Source: Deltaproteobacteria bacterium
GTDB taxonomy: Bacteria > Desulfobacterota > BSN033 > UBA1163
DNA: 32,509 nt
NCBI GenBank assembly: GCA_018333535.1
Contig: JAGXTA010000005.1
Location: 1-32,509, forward strand
Direction: 5' to 3'
Shown here: piece after piece, positions 1,351-8,627 of the stretch
Layout of the letters: each line of letters starts with the position of its first letter
Numbering within the stretch: the first letter of the stretch is position 1
Made by a program: the position numbers and the translations under genes
The notes under the pieces: generated by a model
Seen by the model: only the letters and a program-made list of their open reading frames with translations
The model's database searches: none
Told to the model about the DNA's origin: nothing

Positions 1351-1624
1351 CTGGAGGCTGTGTTGTAATTAGAGTCTGTTTATAAATGCACTTTTCTCGT
1401 CATGCCGGACTTGATCCGGCATCCAGAAAGTCTTGAAAGAACTGGATTCCGGCTTTCGCCGGGATGACGGCCTTTTTGGGAACCGTTAGTTTATAAACAG
1501 ACTCTAATTAGCCATTCATCCTTCGACATGCTCAGGACGAGCGGCTAAGCGATAGATTTTTAACATGTCATAGTCCGTTCGTGGTGAGGCTCTCGAACCA
1601 TGAACGGAATTGTGACACAGTCTC
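1351..1624. repeat. Inverted-repeat element (family A), interrupted by a second element
   Basis: The ends form an imperfect inverted repeat: GGAGGCTGTGTTGTAATT at 1351 onward against AATTGTGACACAGTCTCC ending at 1624. Once the inner insertion (about 1366-1510) is removed, the remaining sequence aligns along its whole length with the reverse complement of 31312-31460, including shared blocks such as CCTTCGACATGCTCAGG, CCGTTCGTGGTGA and CGAACCATGAACGGAATT. No coding capacity was seen. It fills the apbE/thioredoxin intergenic space. Confidence 0.75.
1366..1510. mobile_element. 145-bp MITE-like insertion inside repeat family A
   Basis: The ends are a perfect 21-bp inverted repeat (1366-1386 and 1490-1510). 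The outermost 6 bp, TAATTA, are themselves palindromic, so they may be a target duplication flanking 15-bp terminal repeats GAGTCTGTTTATAAA/TTTATAAACAGACTC. The interior has the common palindrome CGTCATGCCGGACTTGATC with its partner GCCGGGATGACG. No ORF is present. The uninterrupted relative at 31312-31460 marks it as a later insertion. Confidence 0.7.
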
Positions 1625-1663: not shown

Positions 1664-2764
1664 CTACCTGACATAGCCTTCTTTCTTCAGTTTTTCAAAA
1701 ATCTCTTTTGCCTTATCGAGGCTATCAAAAACCAAAGCCGCTGTGATGGTTGCTCCTGAGACAGAATCGACTTTGGCGTCGAAGGAGAAGGGTTTGAGGA
1801 TCGATTTTCCGACGGTCCGGCTCTTCAATCTCTTGATGTCCTCATCTGTCCAATGGAGATTATCGATTTTAGTCAATTGGACAGGGACAATATCAATCAC
1901 CTTTCCCGTTGAATCGAAGGTATAGATGAAAAAGGTGTCATGGCAGATATCACAGACGGCCCGGCGGCTTGCCAATTTTGAAAAGAAGTTTTCCTGCCGG
2001 CCTCCCAGATCGACCTTTCCGGCATAGATCGGGTCGCCATCCTTGAGCGCGATCTTTTCGATATGAAGGACTTTTCCGCCGGATGCCTCCATTCCCTTTC
2101 TTGCCCCTTTTAATATCTCTTCTTCTGTAAGGGGAGGTTTCAAGGCATCGCCTTCATAGATGGCGCCCTTCTTTGGTTTCAGAAGGGCGAGGTTATACTG
2201 GAGGACGACTCTTGTTTCAGCAAGGACATTTTCCGCCGATTCGGTCAGACCCAGATGGGTGCTTACCACCACTCCGTTTCCCCGTGCATCCTTTCTCACC
2301 CAGATGGTGAAAGGCGTTCGAGGGCCTCCGAGAGCCATATGGGCATCGAATTTTGGATCGCTGAAAATGGGATAGGGGATATGATACTCCTTTCTGAAGG
2401 TTTCCACTTCTTTAGGGGTATTGCCAGCTGCGATTCCGATCATCTTCACCTTCCCCTTTAATTTGGGATCCTTCTCGATGGATGAATATAATTCAGTGAA
2501 GATCGGGGCCTGCCTCTGGCAATTGACGCAGTAGGTGCTGAGCAATTCTACGAGGATCAACTCTCCTTTGATCTCCCGAAAAGTAAACTTCGCCTTTTTG
2601 GGTATCCCGAGGTAAGTTTGCTCCTCCCTGGTAAGAGGCTGGGTGAAGGTAACATTAGGGAAGGGGATGGCAAAACCAATCTGCTTGGTTTCTGCCACGG
2701 CAGATGGAGGGAGGTAAAAAGCAAGTAGAGAAACAATCCAAAGGGTGCGAAGTGGTTTTCTCAT
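1664..2764 (-). CDS. Secreted TlpA-like thioredoxin fused to an FMN-binding domain
   Basis: Three redox-type motifs appear in one chain. From the ATG at 2764 the protein begins MRKPLRTLW..., a signal peptide ending near AVA-ET. A TlpA/AlkyI-hydroperoxide-reductase-like thioredoxin fold follows, with YCVNC (Cys79/Cys82). The C-terminal part ends with DSVSGATIT, the DxxSGAT acceptor motif to which ApbE attaches FMN (Thr about 339). Between them CDICH (271-275) matches the CxxCH heme-c motif. I chose 2764 because GGGGAG lies 11 nt upstream and a signal peptide follows directly; the frame also extends to 2857. ApbE lies downstream on the same strand. Likely role: extracytoplasmic thiol/electron transfer; the partner is unknown. 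Confidence 0.82.
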   Translation of the reverse strand: MRKPLRTLWIVSLLAFYLPPSAVAETKQIGFAIPFPNVTFTQPLTREEQTYLGIPKKAKFTFREIKGELILVELLSTYCVNCQRQAPIFTELYSSIEKDPKLKGKVKMIGIAAGNTPKEVETFRKEYHIPYPIFSDPKFDAHMALGGPRTPFTIWVRKDARGNGVVVSTHLGLTESAENVLAETRVVLQYNLALLKPKKGAIYEGDALKPPLTEEEILKGARKGMEASGGKVLHIEKIALKDGDPIYAGKVDLGGRQENFFSKLASRRAVCDICHDTFFIYTFDSTGKVIDIVPVQLTKIDNLHWTDEDIKRLKSRTVGKSILKPFSFDAKVDSVSGATITAALVFDSLDKAKEIFEKLKKEGYVR

Positions 2765-8158: not shown

Positions 8159-8377
8159 ATGACTACAGCAATATCAATTAGACTTCCCCAACCCCTTGCG
8201 GATCAATTAGAAAACATAGCCAAAGAAACTGAAAGACCACGGTCGTTCATCATCCAAAAAGCTCTGGAGTCCTATATAGAAGACTACGCGGATCTCCAGG
8301 TGGCATTGGACCGACTCCATGATAAAACAGACCCGGTTATTTCAGGCAAAGATTTGAGGAAGTCCCTTGGCTTATAA
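8159..8377 (+). CDS. Ribbon-helix-helix antitoxin (CopG/RelB-like)
   Basis: 72 residues. The first half ISIRLPQPLADQLENIAKET followed by RPRSFIIQKALESYIEDY is a ribbon-helix-helix DNA-binding domain. The second half (ADLQVALDRLHDKTDPVISG) would wrap the toxin. The start follows AGGAGGTG by 4 nt. It overlaps the RelE-like toxin by 11 bp. Expected to repress its own promoter as a complex with the toxin. Confidence 0.85.
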   Translation: MTTAISIRLPQPLADQLENIAKETERPRSFIIQKALESYIEDYADLQVALDRLHDKTDPVISGKDLRKSLGL

Positions 8378-8627
8378 TATCGTTTACAAGAAGTCAGTCC
8401 GGCGAGATCTGAAGAAGCTTTCCAAGGCCGAATCTCAACGCGTTCTAAACCAAATTGAGGAAGAACTTTCAGAAAATGCTGATACCTATCCAGTTCTCAA
8501 GGGGCCGTTTGCAGGTTTGCGAAAATATCGTATCGGAGACTACAGGGTAATCTATGCCATTTTAGGAGATGATGTCCTTGTGCTCAGAATCGGTCACAGG
8601 AAAGAAGTCTATAAGAAAAAAATTTAA
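8367..8627 (+). CDS. RelE/ParE-family toxin
   Basis: 86 residues beginning at TTG 8367 inside the antitoxin gene, with GAGGAAG just upstream. Typical family features: KKSVRRDLKKLSKAES, LKGPFAGLRKYRIGDYRVIYAI and the end VLRIGHRKEVYKK. The conserved C-terminal His-Arg...Tyr fits a RelE-type mRNA interferase better than a gyrase-poisoning ParE, but I cannot exclude the latter. It looks intact. Confidence 0.87.
   Translation: MAYNIVYKKSVRRDLKKLSKAESQRVLNQIEEELSENADTYPVLKGPFAGLRKYRIGDYRVIYAILGDDVLVLRIGHRKEVYKKKI

Follow-up and report, generated by a model that had tools for sequence, protein, structure and literature searches.

An exported thioredoxin–FMN_bind protein of Thermodesulfobacteriota, its predicted flavinylation by ApbE and a proposed thiol–flavin relay

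The window, by which we mean the whole stretch of 32,509 nucleotides that was analysed, carries a gene for a predicted exported protein in which a thioredoxin domain is joined to an RnfG/NqrC-like flavin domain. We propose that this protein probably acts as a relay between thiols and a covalently attached FMN, running in one direction or the other. ApbE would attach FMN to Thr339 of the RnfG/NqrC-like domain, Cys271 and Cys274 of a CDICH loop would form a redox-active dithiol against the isoalloxazine ring, and this dithiol would exchange electrons with Cys79 and Cys82 on the same chain. Cys79 and Cys82 would exchange disulfides with client proteins or with a membrane thiol donor, and Cys271 and Cys274 would pass electrons to or from the covalent FMN, which would hand them onward to a partner, or the path would be reversed. 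The anatomy of the chain suggests the order thioredoxin dithiol, flavin-proximal dithiol, FMN. Sequence comparison and modelling support the two domains, the attachment motif, the pairing with ApbE and the linked retention and loss of both cysteine pairs.

Flavins attached by ApbE are known to carry electrons in respiration and in the reduction of iron, and to our knowledge no ApbE-made flavin has previously been shown to take part in disulfide chemistry. Among open-licence full texts, judged by title and the start of the abstract, we found no paper on a thioredoxin–FMN_bind chain. We call the protein a variant of the ApbE-flavinylated carriers, fused in a single chain to thioredoxin. If the proposal is true, flavinylation would be tied to disulfide chemistry within one chain, and bacteria would have a convergent answer to a problem solved by QSOX in eukaryotes.

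Domain layout of the exported protein

The initial annotation had described an exported chain combining a CxxC thioredoxin centre, a CDICH motif and an ApbE target motif. Its open reading frame was confirmed and lies on the minus strand, which had gone unstated, with the start ATG at 2764 and the end of the stop codon at 1664 (Table 1); an alternative in-frame ATG at 2857 would give a protein of 397 aa. The numbering of Thr339 was also correct, SGAT falling at residues 336–339. By eye, the N-terminus has a basic start, a hydrophobic run and PPSAVA (AVA) followed by ETK, and it reads as a Sec signal peptide, which is in keeping with the claim of export.

Table 1. Coordinates of the features discussed in the text, counted from the first nucleotide of the window.
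Feature	Position	Strand	Basis
Gene for exported thioredoxin–FMN_bind protein, 366 aa	1664..2764	-	ORF, motifs, relatives with intact frames
Predicted Sec signal peptide, residues 1–24	2693..2764	-	Reading by eye
ResA/TlpA/CcmG-like thioredoxin domain, about residues 28–193	2186..2683	-	Pfam, sequence and fold matches
Thioredoxin CxxC (CVNC), residues 79–82	2519..2530	-	C79 74/74, C82 71/74
RnfG/NqrC-like flavin domain, residues 199–366	1667..2170	-	Model, structural and profile matches
CDICH, residues 271–275, proposed flavin-proximal dithiol loop	1940..1954	-	Conservation, loop register
DSVSGAT, residues 333–339, with Thr339 as proposed FMN attachment site	1748..1768	-	Conservation, RnfG alignment
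apbE, FAD:protein FMN transferase, 338 aa	306..1322	-	PF02424, 311 bits, E 7e-93
Repeat element with perfect 21-bp inverted ends	1366..1510	.	Ends 1366–1386/1490–1510, in 341-bp gap

Searches of the window protein against Pfam returned AhpC-TSA above its cut-off (E 1.3e-7) and FMN_bind at E 0.0037 and 18.3 bits, under the 22-bit cut-off; no NCBIfam family was above its cut-off. Since only generic redoxin cut-offs were passed in Pfam and none in NCBIfam, the flavin half would be missed by standard annotation. Conservation was read from an alignment of 74 relatives of at least 300 aa, from which duplicates and rows with runs of X had been dropped; 72 rows reach residue 339 and two are cut by contig ends. 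The motifs named in the initial annotation recur throughout this alignment (C271 in 74/74 rows, C274 in 71/74 and D333 in 70/74), showing that they are not a chance assembly.

The thioredoxin half has ResA as its best sequence match (E 8.4e-10), and in the full-length model (pLDDT 89.3) it matches ResA and SdbA at Z about 17. Export, a CxxC, the fold and Pro151, which is invariant in the alignment and which we take to be the cis-Pro position of the thioredoxin fold, are shared with ResA, TlpA and CcmG; the window protein differs in its added flavin domain and in the middle residues of the CxxC, which vary among relatives (VN, TS, VS, YH and others). Taken together, the CVNC, the AhpC-TSA match and the ResA-like fold bear out the claimed thioredoxin centre, and with an exported thioredoxin fold, the CxxC and the cis-Pro all present, sequence and model identify the N-terminal half as a probable ResA/TlpA-like thioredoxin. 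ResA, TlpA and CcmG are reductants, and ResA and CcmG serve cytochrome c maturation. ResA-type proteins carry a glutamate after the CxxC; the family has Gln85 at that place in 70 of the 74 rows.

The first fold search matched the thioredoxin half only, so the C-terminal half was modelled separately, from 63 of the 74 rows after exclusion of the truncated, long-form and cysteine-free ones (pLDDT 91.2). On structural realignment of this half, rows 1–14 were all RnfG/NqrC proteins (Z 12.1–8.8), with 9eri_G the best match to the predicted model (Z 12.1, 3.0 Å over 139 residues), and unrelated folds followed at Z 6.3 and below. With the flavin domain as query, Foldseek's own search returned no match at E 0.001 or better, so it is the structural realignment that carries the fold assignment. 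Thr339 falls on the RnfG attachment threonine in a profile–profile match to RnfG (probability 91.6, E 8e-7), and at least four relatives exceed the FMN_bind cut-off themselves (G019, G055, G067 and G091). We conclude that the C-terminal half, as modelled, has the RnfG/NqrC fold.

The likeness to RnfG and NqrC extends over the fold of the whole C-terminal domain, the strand–loop–strand order and a D-x-x-S-G-A-T attachment motif ahead of the same helix. D333 is present in 70/74 rows and T or S occupies position 339 in 70/74, while the Gly of the motif is not maintained in the wider family. The alignment of DSVSGAT with the RnfG attachment motif and the RnfG/NqrC fold both speak for the ApbE target that had been proposed. 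Unlike RnfG/NqrC proper, the window protein is fused to thioredoxin and lacks the GYGG and ETPGLG loops: CDICH, a CxxCH loop, stands where RnfG has GYGG and NqrC a Leu-Trp loop, and TKxxN stands in place of ETPGLG, so the flavin contacts must differ.

Co-occurrence and co-decay with ApbE

The apbE gene lies 341 bp downstream of the thioredoxin–FMN_bind gene on the same strand. It encodes the only ApbE of the window genome (G000, 97% complete), in which searches for FMN_bind, DUF2271 and DUF3570 found nothing above threshold; the window protein, itself below the FMN_bind threshold, is thus the only detectable substrate candidate. With one ApbE and one detectable substrate, this genome would be a clean test bed.

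We sampled 17 genomes of the window's bacterial family (G000–G016). The gene is intact in seven of them (G000, G003, G007, G009, G010, G013 and G014), all of which have a full ApbE and none another FMN_bind match, and full-length ApbE is present in 0/10 of the rest. Among the latter, G006 retains an interrupted fragment of the gene and no ApbE, the G004 copy is cut by the end of its contig and gives no information, and the only ApbE-like match in G008 is weak (1e-5). In G016 the last 24 residues of the gene survive together with the first part of ApbE; by eye, these remnants flank genes for a PerR/Fur-type regulator and for SOD-, rubrerythrin- and flavodiiron-like proteins (L145:5205-8840, G016:C203).

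The family was surveyed by profile in 395 sampled genomes of the window's phylum; a further scan, of genome contigs, detects close relatives only. The full-length form was present in 49 of these, holders being picked by hand at E about 1e-75 or better with both halves spanned (one is cut at profile residue 308), which makes the family widespread within a single phylum, Thermodesulfobacteriota. An ApbE at E < 1e-10 was found in 48 of the 49 holders and in 132/346 other genomes (Fisher p 2.5e-17, uncorrected for kinship and with 14 weak matches scored as absent); G112 is the one holder lacking it. Set against this phylum-wide presence, apbE adjoins the gene in only 9/60 loci, a set that includes loci truncated at the end of a contig; adjacency is therefore a local feature and co-occurrence a general one. 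An overlap of 4–11 bp joins the two genes in the closest relatives, and two members of another family have a different apbE just upstream, with an overlap of 8 bp. The overlap typical of close relatives is interrupted in the window by the repeat element, one of two abutting repeats (1366-1640) between the genes that together have 43 matches in the genome. As a separate observation, the start of apbE (TTG 1322) and its first residues are unlike those of close relatives, as if rewritten by the insertion.

Based on the fold, the co-occurrence and the co-decay, we find the pairing of substrate and adjacent enzyme in the initial annotation well supported, and the sequences suggest that the protein is an ApbE substrate with FMN on Thr339.

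The CDICH loop and competing readings of its cysteines

C271 is present in all 74 rows, C274 in 71/74 and H275 in 66/74. Position 273 is I, V, L or M in 72/74 rows, and the two exceptions also lack the flavin attachment site. The initial annotation had asked whether CxxCH is conserved among homologues: the CxxC is, the His only in part, and absence of the motif was not what we found. In six rows, from two lineages, both cysteines are retained and His275 is replaced by E, D, S or T. Of the 72 rows extending to residue 339, 63 have C82, C274, H275 and T/S339 together and six lack His275 alone, while C82 and C274 are absent from exactly the same three: the G296 row, and G063 and G098, which are also without His275 and the attachment residue. 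Loss counts were taken from a quick tree, whose well-supported branches force two changes for the His loss and two for the co-loss of the resolving cysteines. That the cysteines outlast His275 is unexpected were it an essential heme ligand, and if the two CxxC pairs exchange disulfides they are expected to be kept or lost together. The co-loss represents two events only, which is few.

In the model, CDICH forms a short loop between two strands and is followed by two strands and the TKxxN segment, which is the RnfG order of GYGG, strand, strand and ETPGLG. A low-threshold hhalign alignment puts C274 on RnfG Gly3; the default-threshold alignment begins after the loop. NqrC residue 151 is the counterpart of RnfG position 8, so that by gapless count Gly3 corresponds to Trp146 and Tyr2 to Leu145. 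One account of NqrC describes Leu145 and Leu176 as sandwiching the isoalloxazine ring and Trp146 as probably stabilising N5 (PMC9325719), and another has the same two loops squeezing the flavin ring (PMC4348036). The CDICH loop may therefore replace the flavin-clasping loop of NqrC, with Ile273 and Cys274 on Leu145 and Trp146 in a register good to about one residue. Since residue 273 is aliphatic in every row with an intact flavin site, Ile273 would occupy the place of Leu145, with Cys274 placed at the flavin. Cysteine occurs in the first 12 residues of the domain in 0/18 RnfG rows. We infer from this register that Cys271 and Cys274 contact the FMN; that the relay runs is a further inference.

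Other readings of the motifs were weighed against this one. That DSVSGAT resembles a flavinylation motif by chance, and that ApbE does not act on the protein, is highly improbable: the FMN_bind score of the window protein, 18.3 against 22 bits, would allow this reading, which is opposed by the RnfG/NqrC fold, by the relatives, at least four, that pass the FMN_bind cut-off, by the conserved D and T/S and by the co-occurrence and co-decay with ApbE. Heme binding at CDICH, which the initial annotation had raised as speculative, we do not favour and consider distinctly improbable. It would make the protein a thiol–heme–flavin carrier whose ResA-like domain may hold its CxxC reduced for attachment. 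An exact CxxCH in 66/74 rows by column and a thioredoxin half most like ResA and CcmG would suit such a carrier, in which the heme motif and the ResA-like domain that serves it could likewise be lost together. Cytochrome c assembly proteins are likewise present in 47/49 holder genomes, the two misses being incomplete or contaminated genomes; maturation being this general among holders, the genome test of heme is uninformative. Against heme stand the replacement of His275 in the six rows that keep both cysteines, with at least two origins, the lack of any other His or Met conserved at 85% or more of the 74-row alignment, the position of the motif as a short loop between strands of the flavin domain where the flavin is clasped, and the aliphatic residue held at position 273, which is no requirement of heme attachment. 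A two-cysteine loop can also stiffen a cofactor pocket, and a CxxC with a nearby His can bind metal. Cys271 and Cys274 might then be a structural disulfide or metal site only, with the thioredoxin and flavin domains separate in action; the near-invariance of both cysteines would fit, but a local structural role does not predict that C274 is lost together with C82 in two lineages, and we regard this reading as quite unlikely.

The thiol–flavin relay itself could run either way. We lean slightly towards electrons passing from thiol to FMN to an acceptor, as a covalent-FMN counterpart of QSOX, over an FMN-to-thioredoxin reductase. The reverse route, as a version of the same relay, would lead from a membrane donor through FMN and the loop dithiol to thioredoxin and make the protein a CcdA-independent periplasmic reductase. 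The resemblance of the thioredoxin domain to ResA, TlpA and CcmG speaks for it, yet no conserved membrane partner gene lies beside the family, and DsbD/CcdA-type proteins (DsbD_TM), which could reduce the thioredoxin centre directly, occur in 29/30 genomes and do not separate holders from non-holders; on balance we hold it unlikely. VKOR, found in 0/30 genomes tested, does not separate them either. The phylum is best known for anaerobes. As a tentative extension, the protein may be an independently evolved second "QSOX", in which thioredoxin, a flavin-loop dithiol and covalent FMN would achieve a flavin-based and oxygen-independent coupling of periplasmic disulfides to electron transfer in Thermodesulfobacteriota. 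One point counts against the relay in either direction: the covalent FMN of NqrC is described as a one-electron carrier (PMC4348036), whereas dithiol exchange involves two electrons.

Known systems, gene neighbourhood and variant relatives

In QSOX, electrons pass from the thioredoxin CxxC to the Erv CxxC to FAD, with His and Phe following the flavin-side CxxC (PMC3616962). The window protein likewise has a thioredoxin CxxC and a second, proposed flavin-side CxxC in one chain, here followed by His275 and Phe279. QSOX differs in its Erv helical bundle, non-covalent FAD and use of O2, where the window protein has a strand-rich RnfG fold and a predicted covalent FMN; we suggest by analogy that it may work like QSOX and is not kin to it. 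Thiol and ApbE-flavin carriers are also combined outside the cytosol in DsbD clusters, which contain separate thioredoxin-like and flavinylated DUF3570 proteins together with DUF4266 (Méheust et al. 2021, PMC8238504). Those are separate proteins with another flavin domain, whereas here one chain carries both functions in a genome without DUF3570.

Neighbour clustering over the 60 loci returned apbE (nine loci) as the only recurring gene resembling a partner, and no conserved membrane partner. The other recurring neighbours, named by eye, include a dehydrogenase/transferase-like gene and a phosphoribosyltransferase-like gene on the opposite strand. No rnf or nqr genes were seen by eye beside the gene within the window, where an 86-aa ORF at 8367-8627 looks like a RelE/ParE-type toxin.

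Several relatives depart from the common form. Long forms of 561–591 aa (L032:6975-8684, L034:5433-7133, L079:1103-2788, L107:2738-4423 and L117:431-2206) have about 120–190 added residues separating the thioredoxin domain from the flavin domain; L032 and L034, whose alignments were read, also have a cysteine-containing C-terminal extension. Two distant relatives of 535–541 aa (L031:4546-6171 and L035:4685-6292) have a flavin domain with CEVC followed by Ser/Thr, and DxISGATK; the first has two AhpC-TSA stretches and adjoins a gene for a family-5 solute-binding protein. Small FMN_bind lipoprotein-like proteins of G341, which have no CDICH, were set aside as another type.

The gene is present as three tandem copies in G070 (L030:2659-6391) and G105 (L104:3795-7564). 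A tandem pair in G296 (L095:3787-6057, G296:C43) comprises one normal copy and a second in which CxxS and CxxG replace both CxxC motifs and the flavin motif is intact. At L150:1508-2655 (G305:C150) one open frame encodes the thioredoxin half and a neighbouring one the flavin half, through a frameshift or a true split. The window genome also encodes a stand-alone relative of the thioredoxin half, of 191 aa and with no flavin domain (L049:3830-6650, G000:C94), in a cluster with the order FUR family, rubrerythrin, redoxin, 191-aa relative and AhpC-TSA, suggesting an oxidative-stress setting. In several distant thioredoxin-like relatives (G000:C139:6288-6593 and others) the match contains one in-frame TGA, possibly encoding selenocysteine.
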